Source: a virus. From it: a DNA stretch of 22,203 bases. Positions within the stretch are counted from its first letter, which is position 1. Each line of letters starts with the position of its first letter. Shown piece by piece: positions 2,685-20,081 of this stretch. A program made the position numbers and the translations under genes. The stretch is from positions 1-22,203 of the IMG/VR virus record IMGVR_UViG_3300007072_000049. One strand, given 5' to 3'. Under the pieces are notes generated by a model that saw only the letters and a list, made by a program, of their open reading frames with translations, was not told the origin of the DNA and did no database searches.

Positions 2685-3572
2685 ATGATAGTAGTTGTAC
2701 GCCCACTGGGCAGGAATAGTTGGTCAGGTTTTTCTAGGTACAAAAATTGTACAGAATACCTAGGCACATATTACACACGTTCTGGTGCACTTTATACTGG
2801 ATTGACGCCAGAAGATGCTGAAAGGCTTGGAAATTTACTGGGACTTGATTTAAGACCCTCTTCTGCATATTGGGAAAGTTTTGTTATACCTATGACCGGT
2901 AAGGATTTGTATTTAGACACTTCATACCCGTCAGATGAATTAAAGTATTTGTTTCTCAAGAACCATAAGAGGGTCCAAGCCTCTATCTCAGAAGTAAAGC
3001 CTGGTGCAAATTATGTAATGATTGATAAAACAAACGAGGCTAAGGAAGCCAATAAGTTTAATAGAATTAAGAGAAGGGCTGCGGTGGAATTTGAAAAAAT
3101 GTCATTGGACGATATGCGTAAGTGTTTACGTCTGTATGGCTATAATTCAGAAAGTTCTTCTGCCGAGATTATAGAAAGCACTTTGTATGACCTTATTGAA
3201 GGTAATCCTGAAAGATTTCTTGATAAGTGGGTTGATAATAAGGATAGGGAGCTATATGTTTTGCTAGAGACTGCAATATCTAAAAATATTATAAGGAAAT
3301 CTGGTGGAATGTATAGATACGGTGGTGAAATACTTGGTAATAGTAAAGACGGTGCCGTTGCTTACCTTAAAAACCCAACAAACCAAGATATTAGGGTTGC
3401 TATAGACAGAGAAGTTGCTGGTAAACCAGAATTTTCTATGGTAGACAGGTCTGCAGAAATAAACGAGGAAGAAGAATCTCCAGCTGCAAAAGCCATTTCT
3501 AAAGCTAAAAAACTTAAAAAACAAGACGTTTCTGATGAGGCAGATGTGCCTAACGAACTTCTTGTAAAATAA
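2685..3572 (+). CDS. Conserved virion structural protein downstream of MCP
   Basis: The 295-residue product directly follows the capsid gene. The N-terminal ~85 residues are aromatic-rich and probably a beta domain. Residues ~135-210 form a helical, SAP-like segment (SLDDMRKCLRLYGYN, then an aliphatic/acidic helix and NPERFLDKW). A short module with KNIIRKSGG and GEILG follows, of the type seen in structural proteins of crAss-like and other large phages. The last ~45 residues are a disordered Glu/Lys tail. In crAss-like phages a conserved gene of this kind follows the capsid gene; its exact position in the particle is not something I can state. The start ATG lacks a Shine-Dalgarno. The stop codon is only 3 nt before the RNA stem starting at 3576. 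Confidence 0.6.
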   Translation: MIVVVRPLGRNSWSGFSRYKNCTEYLGTYYTRSGALYTGLTPEDAERLGNLLGLDLRPSSAYWESFVIPMTGKDLYLDTSYPSDELKYLFLKNHKRVQASISEVKPGANYVMIDKTNEAKEANKFNRIKRRAAVEFEKMSLDDMRKCLRLYGYNSESSSAEIIESTLYDLIEGNPERFLDKWVDNKDRELYVLLETAISKNIIRKSGGMYRYGGEILGNSKDGAVAYLKNPTNQDIRVAIDREVAGKPEFSMVDRSAEINEEEESPAAKAISKAKKLKKQDVSDEADVPNELLVK

Positions 3573-4799: not shown

Positions 4800-5270
4800 A
4801 TGGCTACGAAAAAATATAGATCTTTTGCATCTAAAAGAATTCAGAAGTTTACATGGAAGCAGTCTGTGGATGGTGGTACAAGAAATACTACCATAAGCCT
4901 TGGTACACTTCCTGCTAACATTTTGGTTTGTGGTGGTTTTGCTGTTGTTAACACACAGCCAATAGGTTCTAGTACTAGTATATCTTTTGGTTATACTGGA
5001 CAAACTACGGCTCTTTATCCGCTTACTGCTGTATCAAACCTTACTGCTAACAAGGTTATAAAACTCCTTCCTGGGGCTGTTGACCTTAACAGTAGTGTTG
5101 CATATTCAGATTTTAATACAGCGGCTAATATGGTGTCTGCAACCAGAACTGGTAGTGCCCATGGTGCCTTTGTACTTACAGCGCCCAAGGATGTTGTTAT
5201 TAGTATATCTAACAACACCGACCTTAGTGCTGGTGATATAACGTTGTTTATTGAGTACTATGTACTCTAA
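4800..5270 (+). CDS. Small beta-rich virion protein, probable capsid decoration protein
   Basis: The 156-residue product begins with a basic segment (MATKKYRSFASKR) and is then almost entirely beta-type sequence with Gly, Ser, Thr, Val and Ala. A stretch reading SLGTLPANILVCGGFAVV (residues ~32-50) resembles the 'LPAxxxVxxVxV' strand pattern of small phage head decoration proteins, and the end IFIEYYV-like strand (LFIEYYVL) closes a compact domain. There are no membrane segments. The gene is bracketed by the only good Shine-Dalgarno in the window and by an intrinsic terminator immediately after its stop, an arrangement suited to a high-copy capsid surface protein. The decoration role is inferred from size, composition and context; a head-fibre or minor structural role is also possible. 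Confidence 0.5.
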   Translation: MATKKYRSFASKRIQKFTWKQSVDGGTRNTTISLGTLPANILVCGGFAVVNTQPIGSSTSISFGYTGQTTALYPLTAVSNLTANKVIKLLPGAVDLNSSVAYSDFNTAANMVSATRTGSAHGAFVLTAPKDVVISISNNTDLSAGDITLFIEYYVL

Positions 5271-5280
5271 TGTATAATTT

Positions 5281-5314
5281 GGGGGTTCCTCAAAGGAGCC
5301 CCCTTATTTTGTTT
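5281..5314 (+). terminator. Intrinsic terminator after the decoration-like gene
   Basis: GGGGGTTCCT (5281-5290) pairs with AGGAGCCCCC (5294-5303) across a 3-nt CAA loop, giving a 10-bp stem with one T-G wobble. A T-rich tail, TTATTTTGTTT (5304-5314), follows. It is the clearest Rho-independent terminator in the window. It lies 11 nt after the stop at 5270 and just before the lysis cassette, so it should limit read-through from the head genes. Confidence 0.85.
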
Positions 5315-5317
5315 AAA

Positions 5318-5626
5318 ATGAATGATATTGAATTGGCTGTTAAGCTTTCAAAAATAGATGATAAATTAGAGGCCATATTGCAACAGGTCACTAAAACAAA
5401 CGGTAGGGTTACCGATTTAGAAAATAGGGTTGATGTTATAGAAAAAGAACATATAGCAAATCCTATAAAAGTTTACAAAGAAGATTTAGAAAATTTAAAA
5501 AAAGATATAGAAGTTATTAGAATGTTTTCTTCAAAACCAAAAATTTTAATGCTTACCATAGCCGGTATTTTATTTTTATTACTTGCTAGTGGTATTTTTG
5601 ATTTCATTAAGTTGCTTGCTAGATAA
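5318..5626 (+). CDS. XhlA-like coiled-coil membrane protein, holin accessory
   Basis: From the ATG at 5318 the product has 102 residues. Residues ~5-68 are charged heptad-like helix (KIDDKLEAILQQV, then VTDLENRVDVIEKEH), and residues ~75-98 are one strong hydrophobic membrane segment (ILMLTIAGILFLLLASG) near the C-terminus. This order, coiled coil then C-terminal membrane anchor, matches the XhlA type found beside phage endolysins. An in-frame ATG at 5270 would add 16 residues, but those would be encoded by the terminator stem, so 5318 is preferred. The stop TAA overlaps the next ATG by one base (TAATG), which suggests translational coupling to the endolysin. A spanin- or antiholin-type role is an alternative. 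Confidence 0.6.
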   Translation: MNDIELAVKLSKIDDKLEAILQQVTKTNGRVTDLENRVDVIEKEHIANPIKVYKEDLENLKKDIEVIRMFSSKPKILMLTIAGILFLLLASGIFDFIKLLAR

Positions 5627-6120
5627 TGGAAAATATAAGTAAACATATAAGTTACGAAGAGGCAACATTTAGTCCAGAGGCTAAAAGGTTGAGGATTGAC
5701 AACACGCCAGATAAGGATAACCTTGAAAATATGAAGGCGTTGGCTGAGAAAGTTTTTGAGCCTATAAGGGAGAAATTTGGCGTTCCAATTTACATTCACT
5801 CTTTCTATAGGTCACAAAAACTTAACAAAGCCATTGGTGGTTCAAAAACAAGCCAGCATATGGCATTAGAGGGCAGTGCTGCTATAGATATAGACTTTGA
5901 AGTCTATAAAAGGAATGTTACAAACAAAGAAGCGTTTGATTGGATACGAAAAAATATTGAGTTTGACCAACTTATAGCCGAGGACATTGATGATAAAGGT
6001 AATATAAATTGGATACATATAAGTTACAACAGGTTTGGAAAGAACAGGGGTCAAGTTATGAAAATGGTTATTAAAGTAGATGAAAATGGAGAACGAAAAA
6101 AAATCTACGAAGAGTACTAA
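5626..6120 (+). CDS. M15-family peptidase endolysin
   Basis: The 164-residue protein has the marks of the M15 D,D-/L,D-carboxypeptidase-like family used by phages to cut peptidoglycan stem peptides. After the N-terminal helices come FYRSQKLN (residues 60-67), SQHMALEGSAAIDID (76-90) and, following FDQLIAED (113-120), WIHIS (129-133). Probable zinc ligands are H78, D88 and H131, with E119 the likely catalytic acid/base. The spacing between the first His and Asp is longer than the usual SxHxxGxAxD pattern. There is no signal peptide, so a holin is needed for export; holin-like and XhlA-like genes flank it. The start overlaps the upstream stop by one base. The last ~40 nt overlap the holin-like gene. 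The family call is firm; cleavage specificity is not visible. Confidence 0.85.
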   Translation: MENISKHISYEEATFSPEAKRLRIDNTPDKDNLENMKALAEKVFEPIREKFGVPIYIHSFYRSQKLNKAIGGSKTSQHMALEGSAAIDIDFEVYKRNVTNKEAFDWIRKNIEFDQLIAEDIDDKGNINWIHISYNRFGKNRGQVMKMVIKVDENGERKKIYEEY

Positions 6121-6322
6121 AATAGGATTCTTCGAAGAAGATGTTAATGTTTTTAGTATTACAAGACTTATATTTGCGGTTGGTATTCTATGGTCCATTG
6201 TATTTACGACAGCATATTCTTTTAAAGAAGGAGTTACTGCTAGTGATTTGGCGTTAATCTTTGGTTCATTCTCTGGGGTATTTTCTGCTTTGAAAATAGG
6301 TAATAAAATTTTTGAAAAATAA
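6080..6322 (+). CDS. Holin-like small membrane protein
   Basis: The 80-residue product has a charged N-terminus (about 22 residues, Lys/Glu/Ser/Thr-rich) and two hydrophobic segments: residues ~26-48 (SITRLIFAVGILWSIVFTTAY) and ~56-74 (DLALIFGSFSGVFSALKIG), ending in a Lys-containing tail. Size, topology and position directly after an endolysin fit a phage holin that permeabilises the inner membrane at the end of infection. It overlaps the endolysin gene by 41 nt in another frame. ATGs at 6080 and 6086 are both possible starts, differing by two residues; such paired starts are known in some holin genes, but no evidence for a dual start exists here. No specific holin family is assigned. Confidence 0.7.
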   Translation: MKMENEKKSTKSTKIGFFEEDVNVFSITRLIFAVGILWSIVFTTAYSFKEGVTASDLALIFGSFSGVFSALKIGNKIFEK

Positions 6323-6327
6323 ATATT

Positions 6328-6906
6328 ATGTTTAATAATATTAAGGTTCTACTTTTTGCTATAGGCGTGTTTGTACTGCTTGGTATAACCAATATAATGC
6401 AGTATAAACAAATAAAGGCTTTACAAGAAAGTCTTAGAATAAGTGAAAATAACTACATAGCTGTAGTAGATGAAAACTCTAGGCTTCAGGAACTTACTGT
6501 TGACCAGTTTAGAAAATACAATTACAAACTAGATAGTATAGCAAAAAACCTTAATATAAAATTAAAACCTGGTGTTCAGGTTGTTCAATCTACGTATACC
6601 TATAAGGATACTGTAGCTTATAGAATAGAATTCAAAGATTCTACAATTTATAATATAATCAAAGGTGATACTTTAAAGTTTGTAGCCCCAAAAGGTTGTT
6701 TTGAGGTTTCTGGAATGGTTACCAAACAAGGCGTGGACATAGAAAACGTTGCAATAAAAGACGAGCTAACTGTATTTGTTAATGTAAAGGGTTACGACAA
6801 GAAATTTTTGTTTTTTAAATGGAAGCCCTATTATAGAGCTGTTGTTTATTCAAAGTGTAATAATGATACTATACACGTTGAAGATTATATAAAAATAAAG
6901 AAATAA
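6328..6906 (+). CDS. i-spanin-like inner-membrane protein (DUF6549-like)
   Basis: The 192-residue protein has one N-terminal membrane segment (residues ~4-24, IKVLLFAIGVFVLLGITNIM), a helical coiled-coil stretch (residues ~25-80) and a C-terminal beta-rich periplasmic part. Signal-anchor plus coiled coil placed last in a lysis cassette is the pattern of i-spanins (Rz-like), which help fuse the inner and outer membranes. The sequence recalls small Bacteroidota phage and prophage proteins annotated DUF6549; that link is from memory. No lipoprotein o-spanin gene is visible nested in or beside it. It starts 5 nt after the holin-like gene's stop and ends 3 nt before the next gene. The beta-rich C-terminal half is unusual for a classical Rz and may carry another function. 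Confidence 0.55.
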   Translation: MFNNIKVLLFAIGVFVLLGITNIMQYKQIKALQESLRISENNYIAVVDENSRLQELTVDQFRKYNYKLDSIAKNLNIKLKPGVQVVQSTYTYKDTVAYRIEFKDSTIYNIIKGDTLKFVAPKGCFEVSGMVTKQGVDIENVAIKDELTVFVNVKGYDKKFLFFKWKPYYRAVVYSKCNNDTIHVEDYIKIKK

Positions 6907-6909
6907 GCA

Positions 6910-8172
6910 ATGAATATAGACGAAATGCACATAGCCTTTAGAATAGGGCTTGACAAGACAACCTCTGGGTCATACCCGGACTTTTTGCCTGAAGAAATAG
7001 ACTATTGGCTAAATATTGCTACAAGGGAATTTGTTAAAACAAGGTACAGCGGTGCCAACTCTAAGCAAGAAGCTTTCGAGCAAACCCAAAAGAGGACAGA
7101 AGATCTAAAGACTCTTGTTAAGAATACACTAATAGAAATGAATAGCGTGAGTAAGTGTAGGTCATACGCTTACCAAGATTATGTTTGTAGGTTTGATGTT
7201 GGTAATAGGGTTAATTCTTATCTTGGTTTTCTTCCTACTAAACAAAAAATAATCAACACCGAAAACGGTATAAGGCACGTAAGACCTATGTGGATAGTTT
7301 TGAATGAGTCCACATGCTTAGAAATTCCTACTGGTGGTGTTTATTCCTATGATATAAACATACCACCTATGTTTAATTACTCGCAGGGTGGTGTTATAAT
7401 AAAAGCAACATTTACAAAAAATTCTAATGTTGTAACTGGTGACATGAGTGGTTTTAATTTACTACAAGGATACATGTCTACTGGGTTGTGGGTTATATTA
7501 GACAATGATTTCTTTAATGGTAAATTCAAAAATATATCTAAGGTAAATAGTATAAACAGTTCTACAGAAATAATTTTAGAAGAAAAGTATAAAGGAGAAG
7601 GTGGAGTTGGTTATATGTTTTATTATTCAAATGCTACTTATCCAATAAACATTCCAGGAAGTACTATAACAAATAAGAGATTTCCTGTTAAAGATAGTGA
7701 TTTAAACAGGTTTTCCATGGATTTTGAAGATCCGCTTGGAGAACATGTTTTACAATATGGTTATGCAAGACCTATAAGATTGTTTAGGGATAATATGGTT
7801 GAGTTGGTTACCGATGGTAATTATATACCTGTATACTATGATTTAACATATTTAGCAAAGCCAATGTCAGTAAATTCTCTTACAAATACCACAACTTCAA
7901 TAGAAGAAGACAAGGTTTATAAAGTTACTGGTGGTAGTATTAAGTATGATAATTGTTTGTATAACCAAAACGAATACTTTATAGGTGTTCGTGGTGTGAG
8001 CGCGTACTCTACACAATCTGGTACGCCCGTAATAACAATGCAAAAGGTTGATAGTGATATGCCAGAGCATACACATGATGAAATTGTTAACATTGCTGTG
8101 ACTAAAGCTTTAAGCAATATAGAGTCACCTAGGTATCAACAGAATTTAATTGAAACTTTAAAACAAGAATAA
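6910..8172 (+). CDS. Tail/connector structural protein with inserted beta domain
   Basis: The 420-residue protein starts with a helical domain (residues ~1-85: NIDEMHIAFRIGLDK, LPEEIDYWLNIATREFV, SQKR-like QKRTEDLKTLV) typical of a recurring structural family in crAss-like and other Bacteroidota phages. Residues ~159-240 read as an inserted beta module (VVTGDMSGFN ... GLWVILDN ... ISKVNSINSSTEIILEE), similar in pattern to small Ig/OB-like inserts in phage tail proteins. Later segments include YDLTYLAKP (residues ~310-318) and a final EHTHDEIVNIAVTKAL helix. The two ends therefore pair with each other while the insert protrudes. Likely roles are a head-tail ring or tail-hub component onto which the fibre is mounted, because the giant fibre gene follows after 3 nt. 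Placement within the particle is inference. Confidence 0.6.
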   Translation: MNIDEMHIAFRIGLDKTTSGSYPDFLPEEIDYWLNIATREFVKTRYSGANSKQEAFEQTQKRTEDLKTLVKNTLIEMNSVSKCRSYAYQDYVCRFDVGNRVNSYLGFLPTKQKIINTENGIRHVRPMWIVLNESTCLEIPTGGVYSYDINIPPMFNYSQGGVIIKATFTKNSNVVTGDMSGFNLLQGYMSTGLWVILDNDFFNGKFKNISKVNSINSSTEIILEEKYKGEGGVGYMFYYSNATYPINIPGSTITNKRFPVKDSDLNRFSMDFEDPLGEHVLQYGYARPIRLFRDNMVELVTDGNYIPVYYDLTYLAKPMSVNSLTNTTTSIEEDKVYKVTGGSIKYDNCLYNQNEYFIGVRGVSAYSTQSGTPVITMQKVDSDMPEHTHDEIVNIAVTKALSNIESPRYQQNLIETLKQE

Positions 8173-8175
8173 TAA

Positions 8176-11100
8176 ATGTCATACAAAGTATATAATAGGT
8201 TTGATTTGGCTAGAATGATAGTATCTTATCTAGATGGGGTAAGATACGTATCAATAGACGGTGCCTCTACAGTATTTTCTACTGGCACGTTGGTAATAAA
8301 GCCGGGTAATAATATTACCTTTTCTACTTTTTCCAACGGATTTAGTATAATTGGTGATACAGCTGGTACAGCCAATTCTACCAATTATATGATGGCATCA
8401 GAGAGAGATAATTATTTTAAAACCTCTGCTAACACTTTTGCAAACTCAACTCACACCCATGGTAGTCTAGCGTTAACCAATTTGTCTGGTACCTCTAACA
8501 GCAATGGTCTTTCTTTAAGTGCTCCCAACATAGGTATAGCTGGTAATATAATATCTGCCGGATCTCAATCTGCAAATGCCAGTGGTACGGTTGTATTCTT
8601 TAATTCAAACGGTGTTAGTTTTGGTATGTCTGGCAATTCCATGATAACTGCCAGTATAGACAATTTAAATTCTCAAGCTGTTGTCAGTTTAAACGGCTCG
8701 TCTGGTACACTTTCTTTAAGCGCTACAGACAACATATCTATTCAAAACACTTCAAACACTATAGTTATAGGTGGTCCAGCATCTGTTATAAAAGCTCTTT
8801 CTATTGGTGGTACGGACAGTTCAAATGTTATATACAATGAGGGTGTTTATATAGAAGCTGGTAATAATGTGACACTTTCTAAAAGTGATAATTCTATAAC
8901 AATAGGTGCGGATTTTTCAACGACATTACAAAATGTTGTATACCCAGCAGTCTCAGACACAACATTTCAAACAGGCATAGTTCTTGTGCAAGGATTAAAC
9001 AATATAACTGTAACTTATAACAGTAATACCATAAACATAGTTGGTCCAGATGTTCCGCAACAGCAAACTGGTATTTCTGGTATAGCTGGCTCTGCAGCGT
9101 CTACGGTTACAGATGGTACGGTAGTATTTGCTAATGCAAATGGTATTTCATTTGGGTTATATAGCAACACAATGACAGCTAGTCATGACGCTATTACATC
9201 ACAAAGTATTCAAACACAGAATGTTCACAATCTAATAATAGATGGTAATACAACCGGTACAACTTCAGAAATTTCATCTGGTACACTTTATCTAGTTGCT
9301 GGTAGTAATATAACATTAAGTCAAGATAATAATACGATAACAATAATAGGGCAGTCTGGTGGTACAGTAACTGGTACTGCTGCTGCAGATGGTATAAATG
9401 CACTGGTTGTTAACTCTGGTGCATCTACTTCTGCCACAACCCTAACACTTTCTAATAGCAACAACGTTTCGTTTGGAATAAACAACGGTATAATTACTGC
9501 GTCAGCGTCGTTTTCATCTACACAACTTAATCAAGTAGTAAGTGCACCAAATGGAACATATAGTTTTGAAACTTTAAAACTTGTTAATTCTAATGGCGTA
9601 AGCTGGTTAACCGGAACTGGTGGTATAATAGCTAGTGTAAATACTGGTTATATAACATTAAACTCTAGCTCCGTGTTTATGAATACTAGCGAGCGCGGAA
9701 ATTATTTTTATACTTCTGTTTCTAGTAATTTATACTTTGCAGATTCTAACGGAGTTACTTTTGGTTCTAGTACAAGTGGCGATAGTACTACAATAACAGC
9801 TTCTGTAAGTCTTGGTACTGGTGGTGGCGGTGCTGGTGTTGGTTCTTTTGTTATACTTGGTAATACTACAAATAATACAACAGCATCCGGTAGTACTATA
9901 GCATTATCTGCAGCAAATAATATAACAATAGGCGCTTCTAATAACAGTATTATAAGATTTATAGGTCCAGAAGCCAGTTTATATTTTGTAAACTCTAATA
10001 ACATAAGCTTTGGTACATCTACCAGTGGTATATCGACTACTGTGACACTTTCTGTTTTGGGTGGTGCTACAGCTAATTTTGAGCTTTCTGGCAATACAAG
10101 TGGTAATAGTACTGTAAATGGTTCTTTGATAAGGCTAATTGCTGGTAATGGTGTAACATTTTCTGGTACAAATACATCTCAACTGAGAATAGACGCTGCT
10201 ACAGACTATGTTAAAACAGCAAGTTCTAGTCTATTTCAACACACTTCTAATACTAGCGCCATAACGTCAAATGCAGTAAATACAAGCCAATCCTCTTTAT
10301 TTCAACTTACATCCGCAACCAGCGCAATAACTTCAAACGCATTAAACACAAACCAGTCTTCACTATTTCAGCTTACATCTGCAACAAGTAATATAACTAC
10401 TAATGCTGCTTATAGTACACATACGCACGGCATCCCAACATTATATTTAACTAACTTAAGTGGTACAACAAATTCTGCTTCTAACGGGTTAAGTATAAGT
10501 CTATCAGCTCAAACGGTTGGTGGAGGTGGTGGAGCTGTTATAGCTGCTGGAACACAGACCGGTAATACCAGCGGAACGGTGATATTTTCAAACAGCAATA
10601 GTTTTACTTTTGGAATGTCTAATAATTCAATAATCACTGCTAGTTTCTCTGAATCAACGCATGCCCATCCATACATAGAAACGTCTCAGTCCTCGTTATT
10701 CCAACTTACGTCTGCTACTAGTGCAATAACCTCAAGAGCATTAAATACTAGCCAATCTTCACTATTTCAACACACATCTGCTACTAGTGCAATAACAACT
10801 AATGCGGCTTATAGTACTCATACTCATGGTAATGTTTCATTATATCTAACCAATTTAAGCGGTACTACAAACTCCGCTTCTAACGGGTTGTCTATAAGTT
10901 TATCTGCAGCAACTGGGGCTGGTGGCGGTGATGGTCTTGTTGTTATTGCAGCCGGTACTCAAACAGGCAACACAACTGGGACTGTTGTGTTTTCAAACAG
11001 CAATAGCTTTACCTTTGGAATGTCTAACAATTCTGTAGTTACTGCTAGTTTTTCTCAATCAACACACGACCATCCGTATGTAAATACGTCACAATCTTCT

Positions 11101-13071
11101 TTGTTCCAACAAACATCTGCTACCAGCGCTATAACTTCAAACGCACTAAATACTAATCAATCATCGTTGTTTCAACACACTTCGGCAACAAGTAATATAA
11201 CTAGTAATGCTATAAATACCAGCCAATCCACGTTATTCCAACACACAAGTGCTACGTCTGCAATAACTACTGGGGCTGTCGGTAGGATATGGTTATCTGG
11301 TAATTATGCTGGCGACAGCACTTTGTCTGGTAATACAATAAGGATATATGGCGGTAACAATGTAACGGTTTCTGGAACAAATACTACTGCTTTTTATATA
11401 CACGGTAGAGCCGGTAGTATATATTTTAACGATAGTAATGGTGTTACATTTGGGGCTAGTGTTAGTAGCGAATCGACAACAATTACTGCATCACACGACG
11501 CCGTTAGGTTGTTTGTACTTTCAGGAAATACTTCTGGTCAGTCTACTGCTTCTGGTAATAGTATAAGGTTGGTTGGTGGCAATAATATAACTGTAAGTGC
11601 AGGAACTGGTACTAATTCTAGTATAATACAAATTAATGGGGGTGCTGGAGCTGGTGCAGATGGTTATAACTCTGTACAATTTACAAACTCCACAGCAAAC
11701 TCAACGATGCCAATAGTCTGGGCTGGTAATTCTAATGGTTCTGGTAATATAACCTTGGGGTTGACTGGTTCGACTGTAACCGGTTCTGCTCCATCTGGTG
11801 GTGTTGGTAGTTATAATATACTTGCGGCAGGTACACAAACTGCAAATACCACTGGAACTGTTGTTTTTAGTAATTCCAACGGTCTTTCATTTGGAATGAG
11901 TAACAATAGTGTTATAACGGCATCTCATGAAGAAAGGTCTTTGTATTTTTCAAACGCCAACGGTGTGACTTTTGGTACGTCAACAAATGGTTCTAGTACT
12001 ACGGTTAGTGCTTCTGTTAATGTCGGTGGTGCAGCAAATACAGTAACAATCTACGCTGGTCAGGATAGTACAACATTTACAGACAATTTTAGACTCTTAA
12101 ACGATGCTACTTTAACAGCTAGTCAATATGTAGCTTTTTACACTACAATTAGTACAGCAACAAACGGTAATACATTTGGTATAGCGGCAAGAGTTCCAAA
12201 AGCAATAGCCTTGAGTAGTTCTACTAGGTTTGCTGGTACAGGCACGTCTGCAACTAATGCTAGCATTACACTAGACTCAAACGGTCTTGCGATCAGCGTT
12301 GCAAATCCTGGCGGTGATGGTGGTTATACCTTAACTGGTTACGATCCGTTTAATTTTGGTATGGGTGGGTTGAATACAGCCACTTCTGTAACATCATTTA
12401 GTACAAATAGGACTGTTGTAAATGCTGTACAAATACCATTTCCTGTAGTATTTAATAAACTACAATTGTTAGAAAGTTTCAGTGTTTCTGTAAGTAACGC
12501 TACGGCAGCAACAACATTGGCAAATTCTTTTAATCTAACAAATAACTTTACTTTGTTTGAAAGATATGATAATCCTGGTAATACTGCTAGTACATTATTT
12601 AGTTCTGTAACAAGTGGCTCAGCAGCTCTTACTTTTTCTTACAATTTTGTTGGAGCTACTCAAACCTATGGTATTGCTTATTATAAAGACAGTACTGGTG
12701 GAGTTAATGTATACAGTACTAGTAATACCACTACTATAAGTAATGGTAGTAGTATATTTACTGGTATAAAATTAGTAGAAATACCCATACCAGATGTTAC
12801 CCTAACTGCTGGGGAATACTTTTTAGCTTTAAAACAAAGTACTTCTGGTAATAGTTTTTCAGTTTCTAATGTAATTGTAAATTTACAGGGTAATACTTTA
12901 AGGTTGCTTATAAATCCTGCGTCTAGTACTGCACAATTGCATTTTGGTGGTGGTTATGATTTTGCGGGCAATGGCTATGCTACTACTATTAGCAATGGTG
13001 AAGCTATATCAAAAGTAACTGCTGATGGTAGGAAGATGTATTATAGGCTAGGTTATGGTAATGTTTACTAA
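8176..13071 (+). CDS. Giant repeat-built tail fibre (1631 residues)
   Basis: The product is extremely rich in Ser, Thr, Asn, Gly and Ala, with few charged residues and no signal peptide. A short N-terminal region (residues 1-40, FDLARMIVSYLDGVRYVSIDG) probably docks to the virion. Three repeat families fill residues ~45-1290: about eleven 'SNSNGVSFG...ITAS' beta units, about nine 'GGNNITVS...' beta units, and eight 22-residue helical units (residues 684-749, 839-882, 974-1039). Gly-rich hinges (GTGGGGAG near 550 and GGGGGA near 785) separate blocks. Five HxH motifs occur at residues 93-95, 749-751, 829-831, 882-884 and 964-966. The last ~340 residues are non-repetitive and beta-rich (RFAGTGTSATNASITL, then FERYDNPGNTASTLF, TAGEYFLALKQS) and are the probable receptor-binding or tip-domain end. 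A trimeric fibre contacting the host surface is the most likely role. Confidence 0.8.
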   Translation: MSYKVYNRFDLARMIVSYLDGVRYVSIDGASTVFSTGTLVIKPGNNITFSTFSNGFSIIGDTAGTANSTNYMMASERDNYFKTSANTFANSTHTHGSLALTNLSGTSNSNGLSLSAPNIGIAGNIISAGSQSANASGTVVFFNSNGVSFGMSGNSMITASIDNLNSQAVVSLNGSSGTLSLSATDNISIQNTSNTIVIGGPASVIKALSIGGTDSSNVIYNEGVYIEAGNNVTLSKSDNSITIGADFSTTLQNVVYPAVSDTTFQTGIVLVQGLNNITVTYNSNTINIVGPDVPQQQTGISGIAGSAASTVTDGTVVFANANGISFGLYSNTMTASHDAITSQSIQTQNVHNLIIDGNTTGTTSEISSGTLYLVAGSNITLSQDNNTITIIGQSGGTVTGTAAADGINALVVNSGASTSATTLTLSNSNNVSFGINNGIITASASFSSTQLNQVVSAPNGTYSFETLKLVNSNGVSWLTGTGGIIASVNTGYITLNSSSVFMNTSERGNYFYTSVSSNLYFADSNGVTFGSSTSGDSTTITASVSLGTGGGGAGVGSFVILGNTTNNTTASGSTIALSAANNITIGASNNSIIRFIGPEASLYFVNSNNISFGTSTSGISTTVTLSVLGGATANFELSGNTSGNSTVNGSLIRLIAGNGVTFSGTNTSQLRIDAATDYVKTASSSLFQHTSNTSAITSNAVNTSQSSLFQLTSATSAITSNALNTNQSSLFQLTSATSNITTNAAYSTHTHGIPTLYLTNLSGTTNSASNGLSISLSAQTVGGGGGAVIAAGTQTGNTSGTVIFSNSNSFTFGMSNNSIITASFSESTHAHPYIETSQSSLFQLTSATSAITSRALNTSQSSLFQHTSATSAITTNAAYSTHTHGNVSLYLTNLSGTTNSASNGLSISLSAATGAGGGDGLVVIAAGTQTGNTTGTVVFSNSNSFTFGMSNNSVVTASFSQSTHDHPYVNTSQSSLFQQTSATSAITSNALNTNQSSLFQHTSATSNITSNAINTSQSTLFQHTSATSAITTGAVGRIWLSGNYAGDSTLSGNTIRIYGGNNVTVSGTNTTAFYIHGRAGSIYFNDSNGVTFGASVSSESTTITASHDAVRLFVLSGNTSGQSTASGNSIRLVGGNNITVSAGTGTNSSIIQINGGAGAGADGYNSVQFTNSTANSTMPIVWAGNSNGSGNITLGLTGSTVTGSAPSGGVGSYNILAAGTQTANTTGTVVFSNSNGLSFGMSNNSVITASHEERSLYFSNANGVTFGTSTNGSSTTVSASVNVGGAANTVTIYAGQDSTTFTDNFRLLNDATLTASQYVAFYTTISTATNGNTFGIAARVPKAIALSSSTRFAGTGTSATNASITLDSNGLAISVANPGGDGGYTLTGYDPFNFGMGGLNTATSVTSFSTNRTVVNAVQIPFPVVFNKLQLLESFSVSVSNATAATTLANSFNLTNNFTLFERYDNPGNTASTLFSSVTSGSAALTFSYNFVGATQTYGIAYYKDSTGGVNVYSTSNTTTISNGSSIFTGIKLVEIPIPDVTLTAGEYFLALKQSTSGNSFSVSNVIVNLQGNTLRLLINPASSTAQLHFGGGYDFAGNGYATTISNGEAISKVTADGRKMYYRLGYGNVY
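10225..10422 (+). repeat. 22-residue fibre repeat, cluster 1 (three units)
   Basis: Three exact-length 66-nt units at 10225-10290, 10291-10356 and 10357-10422 encode SSLFQ...TS..ITxNAxNT-type helical repeats in the tail fibre. There are no gaps between units. Hydrophobic spacing in a 22-residue period (two hendecads) suits a trimeric coiled coil. Codons differ between units at many synonymous positions. Confidence 0.85.
10690..10821 (+). repeat. 22-residue fibre repeat, cluster 2 (two units)
   Basis: Two units at 10690-10755 and 10756-10821, same 66-nt length and pattern as cluster 1. The cluster ends in an HTH-type HxH motif (10819-10827). It starts the second copy of a larger super-repeat: the first spans 10291-10689 (399 nt) and the second 10690-11094 (405 nt). 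Each super-repeat holds two helical units, a THTHG turn, the LYLTNLSGTTNSASNG segment, a Gly-rich loop, an AAGTQTGNT strand block and an STHxHPY end. Confidence 0.85.
11095..11292 (+). repeat. 22-residue fibre repeat, cluster 3 (three units)
   Basis: Units at 11095-11160, 11161-11226 and 11227-11292. The first two are close to the consensus; the third begins STLFQ and its C-terminal half has drifted (ITTGAVGRI), making the transition back to beta-type repeats. Same period and phase as clusters 1 and 2. Confidence 0.85.
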
Positions 13072-13082
13072 TAAAAATTAAT

Positions 13083-13670
13083 ATGGCTACTTATACAGAC
13101 AGTTTTACATACACACAAAACCAAGATCTTGATGGACTTGGTAATTGGGTAAAAGTAATAGGCAGGTTTACTACAAAAGGTGGTACCAGAGTTTGTGTCG
13201 ATGATTTTGTAAATGCTGGAGAATCTTGTTATAGGTATAACGCATCTTTGGGTAATGATCAGTATTCTCAAGCTGTTATAGTGGCTAGGGATACGTCTGG
13301 ATATCATTGTTATGGAGTAGCTGCCAGAATATCAACAAGCGCCACTACATATTACGCTTTTTATGCTGATGACAATGGAGGTTGTTATCTAATAAAATCT
13401 GTTAATGGAACAGTTACAGAACTTGATAACGCGACCTATACTACAACTGTTAACGATGTTCTTAGGATAGAATGTAATGGTACTTCTATTGTTGGAAAAG
13501 TAAACGGTGTTACTAAAGTCTCTGCAACAGATAGTAGTATAACATCTGGACAAGCTGGACTTGCCGGTTATTTATCAGACGATATTACGGGGTTGGATGA
13601 TTGGGAAGGTGGAGATTTAGGGTCCAGCCAAGTGTTTGGGTTTAAAGTTGGTTATATTAAAGTATCATAA
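13083..13670 (+). CDS. Concanavalin A-like lectin/glucanase-fold protein
   Basis: The 195-residue protein reads as one jelly-roll domain. It begins TDSFTYTQNQDLDGLGNW, the usual opening of ConA-like domains in phage and bacterial sugar-binding proteins. The following strands contain YGVAARISTSATTYYAFY (residues ~79-97) and YLIKSVNGTVTEL, followed by VLRIECNGTSIVGKVNG (residues ~120-136) and SGQAGLAGY. No catalytic Glu pair of GH16 type (ExDxxE) is visible, so binding rather than cleavage is more likely. It lies between the fibre gene and a glycoside hydrolase gene, 11 nt after the first and 1 nt before the second, which suggests a role in gripping host surface polysaccharide. It may be a fibre tip or a separate receptor-binding subunit. 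Confidence 0.65.
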   Translation: MATYTDSFTYTQNQDLDGLGNWVKVIGRFTTKGGTRVCVDDFVNAGESCYRYNASLGNDQYSQAVIVARDTSGYHCYGVAARISTSATTYYAFYADDNGGCYLIKSVNGTVTELDNATYTTTVNDVLRIECNGTSIVGKVNGVTKVSATDSSITSGQAGLAGYLSDDITGLDDWEGGDLGSSQVFGFKVGYIKVS

Positions 13671-13671
13671 T

Positions 13672-15324
13672 ATGTCTGTAAGTCTAAATATAAATAAATG
13701 CTTTAGGTTTGGAACTTATACACCTGGTGGTCAAACAGGTGAGTATAACAATCTCCCGGAGGGAATGACTTTTTTATACGAACCTTTTATTTATTCTACA
13801 GGCGATCCTTCTATAACAGGGTATGCACATAAAGTTAGACATAGAACAACTCCGGAGAATTTGGGCGTGTCGATATTCAATTTAGACGATTATGTTACAA
13901 ATACTGGTAGTTGGAAAATGGAAACGGCTACAAAGACATTACTGCAAGATCTTAATTTAAAATATACTCGTTTCTATAATCTTAGGTCATTGAGTGGTGG
14001 TGTTACCGATGGTGTTAATAGAGCTTATTATTTGTGCAATCATTTAAATATACCAACTGATAAAGTTGTTTTATCTCTAGAACACTACCAAGAATCCTCA
14101 AAACCATCTACACAAATTTATACAAACGCTCTGACACAAAATAAAAATCAGGGGTATGGATTTAAGAATTGGGAAGTAGCAAATGAACCATATTATACAA
14201 ATACCGGTGTATTCAATCCGGCAAGTGAATATGTTTCATATTTCAACAGTGTTTATACTGCAGCTAAAGCAGCAGATAGTAGTTGTAAATTGGGGCTTGC
14301 TGTGCAAAGGGTTAGTTCTTGGGCGCAAACAGTTATAAATGGGTGTGCTGGTAAATATGATTTTGTATGCCCACATTTCTACGCGTGGAATGACTGGAGA
14401 GACTACCCAAGCATTAGCGGGGCAATATCTCCACTAAACAAAGCTGTCTTACAAGATTATGCGGCTCTTAATAATTATACAAAAACAGTTAACGGTTCTA
14501 TAAAACCAATTTATGAAACAGAGTGGAGGTTATATTCGTTTGGGGCACCGCAAGTTAACTCACAGGGTGTAGACGATTATGATGGCGAGTATCATCCAAG
14601 AAATGGTAATATAGTCGGGGCATGCCACGAAGCTGTGAGGTTGATATACACAATACAAAATGGATTGTCGCTAGCTGCTGGTAACTGGAGATTGGTTGAC
14701 AACAAGTCACAAGCTGTTTTGCCAAGGGGTTGGTGGTACGATGCGCTGTACGGCAATGGGTGGATAAACTTAACTGGTAAAACATCAGTAAGATATTGGT
14801 TAAGGTATTATTTTTCTAGATATATGGGTGACTATGTGTGTACATATAGCGGCACTACACGCTCTTTAACAAATAACGTTTTACATAATTACGAAAGTTC
14901 TCAATCTACACAAACATTTGATACTACACCAACGCTTATAACAATGTCTGCAGATGGTACAACTTTATATATAATAGCAGTAAATGCAAGTAATTCTACC
15001 ATTAGCATTGATTTTAGTATTAACGGCTTTGAATTGGACATGCCGCTTGATGGCAGCAATATATCAGCGAAACTTATAACACAATCCTCCGTAGACAGTA
15101 AGTGGTGGTGTGATAGCGAATCAGATGTTGTTTCGTCATACAATATAAACGGAGGTCAACAATTCCCCTATTTGTGGGCAGAATCTACATGGAATGTTTA
15201 TGAAACTCCTCATGAGGGTTGTGCTTTTGGTACTAATGATTTTCTACCATACAGTATAATTTTTATAAAAGCCAAAGGACAATTAAAAGCAAATTTTGAA
15301 CATTATCCAGAACCACAATCTTAA
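13672..15324 (+). CDS. Clan GH-A-like glycoside hydrolase (GH39/GH51-like), virion-associated depolymerase candidate
   Basis: From the ATG at 13672 the protein has 550 residues; an in-frame upstream codon at 13636 would overlap the previous gene by 35 nt and is less likely. Residues ~60-390 look like a (beta/alpha)8 barrel. NWEVANEPYY (166-175) carries the Asn-Glu pair of clan GH-A, with E172 as acid/base. CPHFYAWNDW (233-242) is the strand with the conserved His-x-Tyr, and IYETEWRLYS (280-289) holds the likely nucleophile E284 (E282 also possible). A C-terminal beta sandwich (residues ~415-550) follows, as in GH39/GH51 enzymes. No signal peptide is present, so the enzyme probably rides on the virion rather than being secreted. 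Flanking lectin-like genes fit a role in cutting capsule or surface glycan. Exact family and substrate are not decidable by eye. Confidence 0.7.
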   Translation: MSVSLNINKCFRFGTYTPGGQTGEYNNLPEGMTFLYEPFIYSTGDPSITGYAHKVRHRTTPENLGVSIFNLDDYVTNTGSWKMETATKTLLQDLNLKYTRFYNLRSLSGGVTDGVNRAYYLCNHLNIPTDKVVLSLEHYQESSKPSTQIYTNALTQNKNQGYGFKNWEVANEPYYTNTGVFNPASEYVSYFNSVYTAAKAADSSCKLGLAVQRVSSWAQTVINGCAGKYDFVCPHFYAWNDWRDYPSISGAISPLNKAVLQDYAALNNYTKTVNGSIKPIYETEWRLYSFGAPQVNSQGVDDYDGEYHPRNGNIVGACHEAVRLIYTIQNGLSLAAGNWRLVDNKSQAVLPRGWWYDALYGNGWINLTGKTSVRYWLRYYFSRYMGDYVCTYSGTTRSLTNNVLHNYESSQSTQTFDTTPTLITMSADGTTLYIIAVNASNSTISIDFSINGFELDMPLDGSNISAKLITQSSVDSKWWCDSESDVVSSYNINGGQQFPYLWAESTWNVYETPHEGCAFGTNDFLPYSIIFIKAKGQLKANFEHYPEPQS

Positions 15325-15328
15325 CACT

Positions 15329-16084
15329 ATGAGTACTAGTTTTGACCCAAAACAATATAAATTTGCCAAAGCTTTTAGAGCAGACGGGCTTGCTGCAAGC
15401 TTTAGATTCAACGAGACTTCTGGTAATTTCTATGACACTTCTGGCACAACAGGGGTGTCTTTGTTAGATTACGGCTTGCCAAATATTCATAGTTCTGGTG
15501 GCATACTTAGTAGTAACTGTGCTTATTTTGACGGTACTTACTTTATACAAATTCCAGACATTTCCAGTCATATATATCTGCACGAAAAAGTTTCGTTTTG
15601 CGTGTGGTTAAAAACCACTGTAGTACCATTAGGTAAATATGTGGTAAGATTTGTTGGTAGCACTGGGAGTCCAGACATTAGGCTATATATAACAAACGGT
15701 CCTTCTTCAACTCTTTACATAAGAATAGGCGATCTGAAAATTTCTGGTGGTAACAATGAGATACAGAGTGAGTGTACAGTACCGCAATCATTAATAGTAG
15801 ATGGAAATTGGCATTTTATAGTGTTTACAATAGACAGAACATTGTCTGGAATAGACCAACATAAGATATACATAGACAACGTAGAAAAGACACTGTCGTT
15901 ATATTATAGTCAAGGATCAGATCCGTCTGGAGATGTTGGCAAAGTAAATATTATTGTTGGTGGAAGTCCATCTTCGTATTATATTACTGGTTATATAGAC
16001 AGTTTGTTGGTGTTTGACAATAAAACCTTAACTACCGAAGAGATTTCTAATCTCTATAACAGCGGAAGTGGTGTAGAAATTTAA
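15329..16084 (+). CDS. LamG-type (Laminin_G_3-like) lectin protein
   Basis: The ATG at 15329 gives 251 residues; it lies 4 nt after the previous stop. A TTG at 15296 in the same frame would overlap the hydrolase gene and is not preferred. The domain is textbook in order: GLAASFRFNETSGNFYDTSG (residues ~19-38), CAYFDGTYFIQIP (~64-76), KVSFCVWLKT (~86-95), DGNWHFIVFTID followed by HKIYIDNVEK, and finally GYIDSLLVFDNKTLTTEEI with a short LYNSG helix. LamG domains bind glycans or proteins and have a ConA-like fold. With the ConA-like and hydrolase genes upstream it forms a sugar-recognition set. No membrane segment or catalytic residues are visible. Confidence 0.75.
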   Translation: MSTSFDPKQYKFAKAFRADGLAASFRFNETSGNFYDTSGTTGVSLLDYGLPNIHSSGGILSSNCAYFDGTYFIQIPDISSHIYLHEKVSFCVWLKTTVVPLGKYVVRFVGSTGSPDIRLYITNGPSSTLYIRIGDLKISGGNNEIQSECTVPQSLIVDGNWHFIVFTIDRTLSGIDQHKIYIDNVEKTLSLYYSQGSDPSGDVGKVNIIVGGSPSSYYITGYIDSLLVFDNKTLTTEEISNLYNSGSGVEI

Positions 16085-16097
16085 TTTAATTATATTT

Positions 16098-16823
16098 ATG
16101 GATAATAAACCACAGATAGTTACTGTAGATCCTGTTGGATTTCACAACAAGGATATTGACAATTCTATAAACAGGCTTAAAAAAGCCGGTACTTATAAGG
16201 ATTTGTCTACTATAATAGTTTGCCCTACTAGGGGGTACATACACGCTAAAGTTGTACAATCATGGATGGGGATGTTAAGACCCATGAATCAAAAGGTAAT
16301 TGGACCTCTTTTTGCAATAGGTATGGAAGTTGGTGAGGCCTATAACAGTATGGTCTCAATGATACTTAATAATCCAGATTTAAAGAATTGGAAGTATATG
16401 CTTACAATAGAAGAAGATAATATACCTCCCCCAGATGGATTGTTGAAGTTATACGAGGACATGGAATATTTTGACGTTGTTGGTGGTTTATACTGGACAA
16501 AGGGCGAGGGAGGACAACCAATGATTTATGGGGATCCCGCAGTGTTTCCTAGAAATTATATACCACAAGTTCCGAAGCCTGATACCCTACAACCAGCTTG
16601 TGGTCTCGGAATGGGTTTTAATATGTTTAAAATAGATATGTTTAAAAATATAGAACAGCCTTGGTTTAAAACTCTTCAAGAGCATGATCCCAGTAAGGGT
16701 TCTGCATTGATGACACAGGATCTATATTTTTATGAAAAAGCTAGTAAGGCTGGTTATAAATTTGCCTGTGATACTAGGATTAAAGTAGGACATTATGATG
16801 CTGAAAACGATATAATTTGGTAA
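16098..16823 (+). CDS. GT-A-fold glycosyltransferase-like protein
   Basis: The 241-residue protein shows a GT-A type layout. STIIVCPTRGYIH (residues ~37-49) is a first strand and loop of the nucleotide-sugar type, KYMLTIEEDNIPP (99-111) carries a DxD-like acidic motif (E105, E106, D107), FDVVGGLYWTKG (125-136) is the next core strand, and ALMTQDLYFYEKASKAGYKF (203-222) has an acidic residue at D208 in the catalytic position. VGHYD (230-234) offers the usual late His. A cytosolic enzyme moving a sugar from a nucleotide donor is likely. Its acceptor could be phage fibre protein, phage DNA or a host glycan. Its place between lectin genes and a methyltransferase gene favours modification of a virion part. 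Similar genes in phages are often annotated as family 2 glycosyltransferases. Confidence 0.6.
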   Translation: MDNKPQIVTVDPVGFHNKDIDNSINRLKKAGTYKDLSTIIVCPTRGYIHAKVVQSWMGMLRPMNQKVIGPLFAIGMEVGEAYNSMVSMILNNPDLKNWKYMLTIEEDNIPPPDGLLKLYEDMEYFDVVGGLYWTKGEGGQPMIYGDPAVFPRNYIPQVPKPDTLQPACGLGMGFNMFKIDMFKNIEQPWFKTLQEHDPSKGSALMTQDLYFYEKASKAGYKFACDTRIKVGHYDAENDIIW

Positions 16824-16825
16824 TT

Positions 16826-17413
16826 ATGAATAAGAAAACTGTTAAGAAAAACGCTTTTAAAAATAGCGAAAATAACAAGGTTGAAGTTAAATCTCAGGAT
16901 AATACTCCTTTGAGACTGAATCTTGCCTGTGGTAATGTTAAAATTGAAGGCTTTGTAGGTGTTGATATTGTAAAGACAGAAGCTGCTGATATTACGGTGG
17001 ACTTAGAAAAATTTCCGTGGCCTTGGAAAGACGAGTCTGTAGATGAGATATTCTGTTCACACTATGTTGAACACACAAACGATCTTATAAAATTCATGGA
17101 CGAGTGCTATAGGATTTTGAAACCAGGTGGAAAAATTAAAATTATAGCTCCTTATTATAATTCAATAAGAGCTTGGCAAGACCCCACACATAAAAGAGCT
17201 ATAAGTGAAGCTACATTTTTATATTTTAATAGGCAGTGGAGAGAGGTTAATCGTTTGGATCATTATAGTATAAAATCTAATTTTGATTTTAATTACGGTT
17301 ATGATATGAATCCCGAGTGGGCGTCTAGAGCACAAAGCGCTAGGGATTTTGCTATTAAACATTATACAAACGTTGTAAACGACATACACGTTGTTTTAGA
17401 AAAGAAACAATAA
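16826..17413 (+). CDS. Class I SAM-dependent methyltransferase
   Basis: The ATG at 16826 gives 195 residues and lies 2 nt after the previous stop; a TTG at 16817 overlaps that stop and is not needed. After a basic N-terminal tail (residues ~1-27), LRLNLACGNV (29-38) is motif I for SAM binding, with D47 in GFVGVDI as the acidic residue that holds the ribose. DEIFCSHYVEHT (73-84) is the post-motif II/IV strand and YRILKPGGKIKIIAPYY (95-111) is the classic motif of Methyltransf_11-type enzymes. Substrate is not visible. Its neighbour is a glycosyltransferase-like gene, so O-methylation of a transferred sugar is one possibility. No target-recognition domain is present, so it is unlikely to be a DNA methyltransferase of a restriction system. 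Confidence 0.85.
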   Translation: MNKKTVKKNAFKNSENNKVEVKSQDNTPLRLNLACGNVKIEGFVGVDIVKTEAADITVDLEKFPWPWKDESVDEIFCSHYVEHTNDLIKFMDECYRILKPGGKIKIIAPYYNSIRAWQDPTHKRAISEATFLYFNRQWREVNRLDHYSIKSNFDFNYGYDMNPEWASRAQSARDFAIKHYTNVVNDIHVVLEKKQ

Positions 17414-17414
17414 G

Positions 17415-17768
17415 ATGGATAAGAATATTACGGTAAAGATACAAAAGGGCACGATATTTAAAGCTAATATAACTTTTAAAGCAAATAGGGTGCCTATAAA
17501 CCTAACTGGTAAAACAGTGTTTTTTACAGTAAAGCAGTTGAACGATAATTCTGGTGACGATGATTTAGCGCTTATTAAAAAGACTATTACAGTACACTCC
17601 GATCCAACAAATGGTAAAACAGTTTTGGAGCTGTCTGCCACAGACACGGATATCAATATTTCTAAATATAAAGCAGATTTTAAAATCTTCGAGAGTGGTT
17701 CTTTAAACTCAAACTCTGACCAGTTTATAATAGAAATTGTAGATGTTGTAACAAAACGAACTTCATAA
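17415..17768 (+). CDS. BppU N-terminal-like Ig-fold virion protein
   Basis: The 117-residue protein is one compact beta domain: KNITVKIQKGTIFKANITFK (residues ~3-22), NLTGKTVFFTVKQL (29-42), TVHSDPTNGKTVLELSATDTD (59-79) and YKADFKIFE (85-93). The order 'low-complexity strand, dLtG, tV.ftvK, dp..G, dT' is the pattern of the BppU N-terminal Ig-like domain found in phage baseplate and fibre proteins. It could serve as an adaptor linking fibre or enzyme to the tail. It follows the methyltransferase gene with 1 nt between them and is followed by a 45-residue gene. Structural role only; no catalytic residues. Confidence 0.6.
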   Translation: MDKNITVKIQKGTIFKANITFKANRVPINLTGKTVFFTVKQLNDNSGDDDLALIKKTITVHSDPTNGKTVLELSATDTDINISKYKADFKIFESGSLNSNSDQFIIEIVDVVTKRTS

Positions 17769-17921: not shown

Positions 17922-18623
17922 ATGATTAATTTTGTATCTTTAAATACAATACAGAGAGATCTGTTAGAAATAATAAGAGGTTCACAAGTAGTGGCGTCTG
18001 AAAATATATCACCAAATCAGATAGAAAAGTGGATACACGAGTATAGGGCTATACTTCTCAAGAAGGATATAGATAGGGGTAAAAGTTTAAACCCCGCTTA
18101 CATTCAAGAAATTCCTATAGTAAAACTTGTAGAAGTAGATTTGGCAAATGATTTATCTGAAGTTAAGACAAATCTTTATACTTTTAGAACAGAGTATAAG
18201 ATCCCTAAAACAATAGATTTTATATTCAAACCAGGTATAGTATCTGTGGAAACACCAGAGGGTGAAGAGATACAGTTTGTTCCACAGAAAAGGGCAAGGT
18301 ATCAGAAGTATAAAAAGTATACTGGTAATGATATGGTTGCTTATTTAAAAGACGATTATATCTATATAGAAGGATGCCATGAAGATTTATATTACGTTAG
18401 AATAAGGGGTGTGTTTGAAGTTCCAACAGAGGTAGACACGTTCCAATCTGGTGATATAACTGAACACACTTATACAGCAAATGATAAATATCCAATACCT
18501 ATAGACGTTGTACCATTACTGAAAGAACTCATTTTACAGAAAGAACTTTCTATTTCTGTACAAACACCGCAGGATACTGTTAACGATTCTGCAAATAGGG
18601 TACAGCAAAATTATAAGAAATAG
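17922..18623 (+). CDS. Head-tail connector ring protein, crAss-like
   Basis: The 233-residue protein starts with a helical stretch (residues ~5-48, IQRDLLEIIRG then IEKWIHEYRAILLKKD) and has a central beta part (~70-175) ending in VRIRGVFEVP. The C-terminal helical tail has VPLLKELILQKELSI and the Asn-rich end DSANRVQQNYKK. This pattern is shared by a conserved late structural protein of crAss-like phages that I take to be a ring/adaptor component below the portal. It opens the last tail block and is followed after 4 nt by the IHF-like gene. It ends in TAG, the only gene in the window to do so; reading through would add seven residues and stop at TAA 18645-18647. Confidence 0.55.
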   Translation: MINFVSLNTIQRDLLEIIRGSQVVASENISPNQIEKWIHEYRAILLKKDIDRGKSLNPAYIQEIPIVKLVEVDLANDLSEVKTNLYTFRTEYKIPKTIDFIFKPGIVSVETPEGEEIQFVPQKRARYQKYKKYTGNDMVAYLKDDYIYIEGCHEDLYYVRIRGVFEVPTEVDTFQSGDITEHTYTANDKYPIPIDVVPLLKELILQKELSISVQTPQDTVNDSANRVQQNYKK

Positions 18624-19112: not shown

Positions 19113-20081
19113 ATGATATATAAATATACATCCGTTAGGGAAATTATAGCAAAGGTTTTTACAGACCTTAACCTTCAGGAAGAGGCTCAACGAATCTCTG
19201 ACATGATTGAGTGGTGTGGCGAAGCTATGGAAAAGATTGGGTCTTATAATCAATATATCCTTAAAGTTGCTGGTAAAGCTGGTGAAGACGTTTTAACTGT
19301 AGACAATTATCAGGCAAAATTACCTGATGATTTTCATAGTTTAGTACAGGTAGCTTATTCACAAACGGCTGTAGGACCTTTTTATCCTATGAGATATTCT
19401 GGTGGTTCGTTTGATACTAATAGGCGACTTACTGCAGCTATGAAACTAGACGATTCTAATTATCTAGACAATCCCTCAGCTCTTATTACTCTTAACGACA
19501 TTATATGGACAATGACGTTATTTGATTTAAGCTATCAAGACTCTATGGCAAAATTGCAGGCAGAGCCGCAATTAGCAGAACTTATGAGGTATATACTTAG
19601 TAAAAATAATATCACAGATATAAATAATGTATCTGATGGTAATACCTCTTTTACTGAGGGTGTTGTCTTTACAATAAACAATAACTATATAAAGACCAAC
19701 ATGCAAACCGGTTATATAGTTATGGCATATCTAGCAATGCCTACAGATGAAGAGGGTTATCCAAAGATACCCGACAATTCAGCTTATAAAGAAGCCATAT
19801 ACTGGTATATAACCATGAAGTTGTTGTATCCAAAGTGGGTTTCTGGTCAAATAAAACCAGATGTTTACTATCACGCAGAATTAAAATGGCAGTTTTATAG
19901 GAAGCAGGCTTATGCAGAAGGTATGATGCCAGACGTAGAACAGTTAGAATCTATAAAGAATTTGTGGTTAAGGATTATACCCACTATCAGTGAACATGAT
20001 ACATTCTTTTCTAATCTTGATAGAATGCAGCAAATGTACACACACTCTTATAAGGGCAGGGGTTTTAATAAGAATATTTAA
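19113..20081 (+). CDS. Tail tubular / ring protein (T7 gp11-like, crAss-like)
   Basis: The 322-residue protein opens with a helical domain (residues ~5-42, SVREIIAKVFTDL then MIEWCGEAMEKIG), a common start of tail tubular protein A-type gatekeepers. The central part has LPDDFHSLVQVAY (residues ~69-81). Later NNYIKTNMQTGYIVMAYLAMPTDEEGYPKIP (~190-220) forms the beta sheet plus loop typical of this class, followed by YKEAIYWYITMKLL and a C-terminal helical part. Such proteins form a dodecameric ring under the portal adaptor that receives the nozzle. It lies between the IHF-like gene and the muzzle-like gene, 8 and 5 nt away. Exact equivalence to the ring proteins of a named crAss-like phage is not established. 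Confidence 0.6.
   Translation: MIYKYTSVREIIAKVFTDLNLQEEAQRISDMIEWCGEAMEKIGSYNQYILKVAGKAGEDVLTVDNYQAKLPDDFHSLVQVAYSQTAVGPFYPMRYSGGSFDTNRRLTAAMKLDDSNYLDNPSALITLNDIIWTMTLFDLSYQDSMAKLQAEPQLAELMRYILSKNNITDINNVSDGNTSFTEGVVFTINNNYIKTNMQTGYIVMAYLAMPTDEEGYPKIPDNSAYKEAIYWYITMKLLYPKWVSGQIKPDVYYHAELKWQFYRKQAYAEGMMPDVEQLESIKNLWLRIIPTISEHDTFFSNLDRMQQMYTHSYKGRGFNKNI

Follow-up and report, generated by a model that had tools for sequence, protein, structure and literature searches.

A glycosyltransferase-methyltransferase gene pair linked to a repeat fibre in a crAss-like phage fragment and in many dissimilar phages suggests glycosylation of phage fibres

We have analysed a stretch of viral DNA of 22,203 bases (IMG/VR record IMGVR_UViG_3300007072_000049, positions 1 to 22,203; hereafter the window), which is part of the genome of a crAss-like phage (Crassvirales); the major capsid protein (MCP), the ring proteins and the muzzle protein could all be matched in it. 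The subject of this work is a pair of genes in the window, coding for a glycosyltransferase (GT) and a methyltransferase (MT), and its relation to a long repeat fibre encoded upstream. As described in the initial annotation, five co-directional genes lie in a row between the fibre and the ring genes; their open reading frames (ORFs) were listed at 13083-13670, 13636-15324, 15296-16084, 16098-16823 and 16817-17413, and a BppU-N-like ORF at 17415-17768 also sits between the fibre and Ring 2. The TTG starts as listed for three of the ORFs run into their upstream neighbours, and the ATG codons at 13672, 15329 and 16826 are a better fit. With these starts the genes of the region are as follows.

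8176-13071, + strand: repeat fibre of 1631 amino acids (aa) with two related repeat units
13083-13670, + strand: ORF of 195 aa, "ConA-like" in the initial annotation, identity not confirmed
13672-15324, + strand: putative clan GH-A (GH51/GH39-like) glycoside hydrolase, from profile matches and the candidate catalytic residues E172 and E284
15329-16084, + strand: LamG/ConA-superfamily lectin-like protein (Laminin_G_3, E 1.4e-10)
16098-16823, + strand: GT-A glycosyltransferase (GT), from PHROG, fold model and invariant residues
16826-17413, + strand: class I SAM (S-adenosylmethionine) methyltransferase (MT; Methyltransf_11, E 7.5e-11)
17415-17768, + strand: BppU-N-like small protein, after the GT-MT pair

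GT and MT form a real and conserved pair. Relatives were collected from viral contigs with alignments of either protein, the GT alignment giving 365 confirmed relatives, of which 80 loci were studied, while 80 of 223 loci were studied for the MT alignment. Where 2 kb or more of sequence is available on each side of the locus, MT is found within 1.5 kb of GT in 57 of 58 GT loci and GT within 1.5 kb of MT in 55 of 57 MT loci; GT and MT are a median of 6 bases apart, and in the window just 2 bases separate the GT stop codon from the MT ATG. The one exception among the 58 GT loci, L083, has its MT beyond 1.5 kb, in the order GT, BppU-N-like gene, repeat fibre and MT (4865-10501), so that the fibre lies inside the pair; the protein encoded there between GT and fibre is a 43% relative of the BppU-N-like protein of the window. 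At L100, L137, L142 and L215 a gene of the NAD-dependent epimerase/GDP-mannose 4,6-dehydratase type stands between GT and MT, and in the phages concerned the pair is thereby tied to sugar metabolism; the corresponding match at L220 is weak. Relatives of GT also occur in GTDB genome contigs, nine out of ten of them (L228-L237) in bins of Patescibacteria (Candidate Phyla Radiation, CPR), and at some of these loci a beta-lactamase-like gene separates GT from MT; the contigs may represent CPR phages or mis-binned phage contigs.

The first clue to a wider association was the presence of a window-type fibre repeat shortly before GT in the high-GC (guanine plus cytosine) contig G001 and in podovirus ctKR88 (MW202524), in each case with one small gene between the repeat fibre and GT. 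Repeat models were built and then applied to all fetched loci. One count took loci picked for their GT or MT alone, made nonredundant at 90% and having 3 kb or more of upstream sequence: a repeat fibre was present within 6 kb upstream in 67 of the 71 non-crAss-like GT loci, and within 1.5 kb in 58. Because these models had been refined on the same loci, the linkage was recounted with models built solely on the fibre of the window, which still found a fibre within 6 kb upstream in 56 of the 71 loci; circularity of the iterated model was thus rejected as the source of the linkage. Chance or composition was likewise rejected as the source of the repeat matches, as reversed and shuffled proteins gave none. 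The fibre ORF lies upstream of GT in 76 cases and downstream in two, and outside the crAss-like clade it is usually the nearest large ORF upstream of GT. For the reverse search, contigs were collected with nothing but the peptide pattern GG[NP]N[IV]T[LVM]S[QG], a query itself taken from a GT-linked fibre, and the sample is biased to query-like repeats: GT was present within 6 kb in 48 of 52 repeat loci with room downstream, MT as well in 45, and GT in 29 of 33 once known or duplicate GTs had been removed. The co-occurrence of the pair with Ser/Thr-rich fibres across related phages, which the initial annotation had put forward as a check, is therefore borne out in these two sets.

The linked loci range in GC from about 0.32 to 0.68. 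When the 67 loci are joined by shared flanking gene families they fall into 27 groups if at least two shared families are required and into 45 if at least three are, and the linkage of fibre and pair has been kept although GT has diverged to about 45-60% identity and the flanking genes have diverged also. The linkage covers many gene backgrounds, and parts of the tail module may nevertheless share a common descent. In ctKR88 (L075, 3147-7307) three further genes with sugar-transferase-like names lie shortly after the capsid gene, and a second methyltransferase precedes GT.

The labels given to the two enzymes in the initial annotation hold, for GT by structure and for MT by domain. For the GT (16098-16823) Pfam returned no match of weight, and PHROG gave a glycosyltransferase match (E 2e-6). 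The structure model (predicted local distance difference test, pLDDT, 96.3) has a GT-A Rossmann-like fold, and its best structural match is A197 of Sulfolobus turreted icosahedral virus (STIV; PDB 2c0n; Z 21.3, 2.1 A over 169 residues), which is also the sole match of the GT family profile among PDB sequences (E 8e-5). With the PHROG match, the confident model and the A197 match taken together, the predicted fold can be regarded as settled as GT-A. The next fold matches are LH3, Mnn9, mimivirus R699 and COLGALT1, mostly protein-glycosylation enzymes; since wall-polymer enzymes (TarP, RmlT) and polysaccharide synthases match as well, the fold alone cannot name the acceptor. Over 83 sequences N64, D107, Y132, K135, F190, D208 and H232 are invariant; they include the later His (H232) and the Asp of a DxD-like acidic motif, E105-x-D107, in which E105 is kept in at least 90% of rows and which would be expected to bind the metal. 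Two copies of the GT family occur at L141 (9995 and 12332) and at L161 (4949 and 6745). The MT carries a Methyltransf_11-type domain (E 7.5e-11, 43 bits against a cut-off of 21.2).

The fibre of the window is indeed rich in Ser, Thr and Asn, which together make up 40.8% of its residues, and it lacks Cys. Its repeat unit A reads GNTxG...SSGTLxLAGGNNITLSQ...ITISG and unit B SGTVVFSNSNGVSFGLSGSTITAS; neither Pfam nor PHROG gave a match of weight for this or the other repeat fibres tested. Conservation among polar residues was compared over 354 repeat units, not every one of them distinct since some come from overlapping loci of the same contig; it is highest at the Asn (91%) and Thr (90%) of GNTxG, followed in N-I-T-L-S by Asn (85%), Thr (86%) and Ser (87%). 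These conserved residues may be sugar acceptors or may merely hold the repeat together. In a near-copy of the window phage (L074/G003, MCP 99% identical) the fibre has 1832 aa (ORF 11938-17436 of the reverse complement) against 1631 aa in the window, and the two can be aligned only in parts, which suggests that the length of the repeat region is quick to change.

The association is not absolute, because one clade of crAss-like phages keeps GT-MT without a repeat fibre. In the GT tree 19 fibre-less crAss-like rows and one row not marked as crAss-like form a single clade with 100/100 support, which nests in a larger group together with fibre-linked forms from crAss-like phages and Patescibacteria bins. 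In the fibre-less clade GT-MT directly follows a gene of 124-156 aa located after a gene-3 homologue. The window shares 84% identity in its capsid protein with G005, which has a GT of that clade, and only 55% in GT, whereas with the GT of the unrelated G001 the window GT shares 62%; this would fit either an exchange of GT-MT from phage to phage or loss and relocation within a single clade. The substrate in the fibre-less clade may be another virion protein. In G021 (L042, L066, L067), a crAss-like relative, four TAG codons interrupt the Ring 2 frame, which suggests TAG recoding.

We propose that GT and MT are probably a phage-encoded pair for virion glycosylation with the repeat fibre as the main substrate; glycosylation of the fibre is inferred because of the gene linkage. 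In the infected cell the GT-A enzyme would use a metal and a host nucleotide sugar, which in some phages would be modified by the phage, and would place the sugar on Ser/Thr or Asn of the fibre repeats, after which MT would methylate the attached sugar. The fibre would thus be the acceptor, MT would act on the sugar and not on the protein, and the phage might, for example, gain in solubility, in resistance to proteases or through masking. The earlier suggestion that the two enzymes decorate the fibre has in this way gained strong genetic support, which comes from pairing and linkage; the glycan itself is what we infer from them. A bolder conjecture, to which we would give somewhat less than even weight, is that a "glyco-fibre" unit is mobile and has spread through tailed phages of dissimilar kinds; in it the repeat fibre, one not named before, travels with its own GT, a sugar methyltransferase and sometimes an epimerase/dehydratase, and carries a methylated sugar at fixed residues of each repeat, somewhat as collagen does; the candidate acceptors would be the Thr of GNTxG and the Thr and Ser of NITLS.

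Several observations weigh against the fibre as the substrate. A repeat fibre lies in the 6 kb upstream of GT at only 3 of 24 nonredundant crAss-like loci, and a search of the records G008, G014, G024, G027 and G028, some of which are long and none known to be complete, did not turn up the repeat. Relatives with GT and MT and no such fibre had been named beforehand as evidence to the contrary; they do occur among crAss-like phages, mostly in the one GT clade, and not as a rule elsewhere. Conversely, G018 and the sampled loci L249, L300, L301 and L307 have the repeat with no GT nearby, although the contig of L307 is also the source of L080, where a GT sits elsewhere. The loci are related by descent, so the counts are not independent trials, and with a single shared flanking family as the link the 67 loci collapse into 10 groups, one of which holds 53. 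In the window itself three genes stand between the fibre and GT, and the similarity of fold leaves the acceptor unshown.

Among the alternatives, the fibre-less crAss-like clade, which keeps the pair right after its small gene and showed no repeat in the records searched, would suit a pair that glycosylates another virion protein (a head fibre, the small gene-4-like protein or the tail tip) and for which the repeat fibre is a mere neighbour in the late module; so would the glycans reported on mycobacteriophage capsid and tail tube, as cited in PMC12619734. We consider this unlikely, since in phages other than that clade it is the fibre to which the pair is linked, and a search with only the repeat leads back to GT. 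Prophage serotype-converting transferases modify the host envelope, and a comparable action of the pair, serving receptor masking or superinfection exclusion, could draw on the fold matches with TarP and RmlT (cell-wall polymers) and polysaccharide synthases, and on the epimerase genes, which are also typical of surface polysaccharide pathways. The embedding of the pair in structural genes, in a fixed order with one kind of fibre, makes this quite improbable, and no constant flippase or membrane-anchored neighbour was noticed in maps whose neighbours had not been systematically annotated.

There is a similarly small chance that fibre, GT and MT hitchhike as a block without acting on each other: tail modules recombine as blocks and the fibre-less clade still has the pair, but the linkage has outlasted the divergence of GT and of the flanking genes. 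Hydroxymethyl-pyrimidine routes of DNA modification need genes of the thymidylate synthase family, and such genes were present in one of 18 GT-bearing records, many of which are fragments. The GT-A fold is moreover nearest to protein and glycan enzymes and the genes sit among virion genes, so that modification of phage DNA is very improbable indeed, even if phage glycosyltransferases often act on DNA (stated in PMC12619734).

The hydrolase and lectin-like genes had been united with GT-MT in the initial annotation as a cassette that cuts the host glycan and dresses the phage in sugar. A five-gene unit of this kind was rejected, as the hydrolase and lectin genes are sporadic and do not travel with GT-MT. 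The assignment of the hydrolase (13672-15324) to clan GH-A (GH51/GH39-like) is supported at the profile level: a single-sequence Pfam search gave only GH39, below the cut-off (E 0.033), and a three-sequence profile matched only GH51 arabinofuranosidases (best E 2e-4) and GH39 xylosidases among PDB sequences, in partial alignments. Both Glu of the motifs W-E-V-A-N-E172-P and T-E284-W-R are kept in all three sequences, and E172 and E284 are candidate catalytic residues, with the Asn-Glu a candidate for the acid/base; the structure model (pLDDT 39) was too poor for a fold search. Relatives among the fetched loci are limited to L113/G014 and L107, about 5 and 8 kb from GT. None was found in the phage collection, nor among viral contigs by peptide pattern, a weak search with short patterns from one sequence. 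The LamG label of 15329-16084 is firm (Laminin_G_3, 42 bits against a cut-off of 27.6); relatives occur in a few crAss-like loci, and different large genes take its place in others. The ConA-like label of 13083-13670 could not be confirmed: Pfam, PHROG, NCBIfam and PDB sequences gave no match of weight, the PDB matches being antibody-like and of low weight, and the gene was found elsewhere only in the near-copy G003 (94%). These genes look like exchangeable host-attachment or depolymerase genes inserted between fibre and GT, and an attack on host polysaccharide by the predicted products is plausible.

The structural genes on either side of the region place the window among the crAss-like phages.

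1205-2668: major capsid protein (phrog_11589, E 9e-130)
2685-3572: gene after the capsid gene, with a RecA C-terminal-like domain (E 1.1e-7, above cut-off)
17922-18623: Ring 2 (CrAss_Ring_2, E 1e-52)
19113-20081: Ring 1 (CrAss_Ring_1, E 1e-80)
from 20087: muzzle (crAss_MUZ, E 5e-102)

The RecA C-terminal-like domain is surprising inside a structural block. No close relative at the DNA level was found among named phages; L003 and L004 are near-identical relatives by capsid protein, and both end before GT.

Few cases of phage virion glycosylation are known. The occurrence of the same trio of fibre, GT and MT in many dissimilar phages suggests, from sequence, a dedicated kit with which phages would coat their own fibres with a methylated sugar. 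If the fibre is the substrate, the trio would allow glycosylated fibres to be predicted, from sequence alone, for many phages that have not been cultured and would point to the acceptor, and it might explain the regular repeat of Ser/Thr/Asn-rich fibres. Glycosylation of fibres would also matter for the encounter between phage fibres and their hosts.

At the family level GT has weak matches to PHROG 12406 (glycosyltransferase; 2e-6) and PHROG 1574 (3e-11), neither of which describes a link to this fibre, and no description of the trio was found in open-licence papers; subscription papers lay mostly outside this search, so it may have been published. STIV A197 is an essential glycosyltransferase of a virus whose coat protein is glycosylated, the acceptor of A197 being unproven (PMC10551542). 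It resembles the window GT as a viral GT-A enzyme of minimal size and as its best structural match; it differs in belonging to an archaeal non-tailed virus and in sharing about 20% identity. We know of no MT partner or repeat fibre for it. The collagen hydroxylysine glycosyltransferases LH3, COLGALT1 and mimivirus R699 are the next-best fold matches, at about 10-12% identity. LH3 and COLGALT1 have a fibrous repeat protein as their substrate, the acceptor being hydroxylysine in collagen, and the likeness of collagen and phage fibre as types of substrate may be chance. Virion glycosylation in mycobacteriophages has been described by Freeman et al. (2023), as cited in PMC12691614 and PMC12619734, the latter of which reports glycans on the C-termini of capsid and tail-tube proteins. 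The system proposed here would differ from that description in its sites, and would resemble the mycobacteriophage system as a phage-encoded glycosylation of virion proteins.

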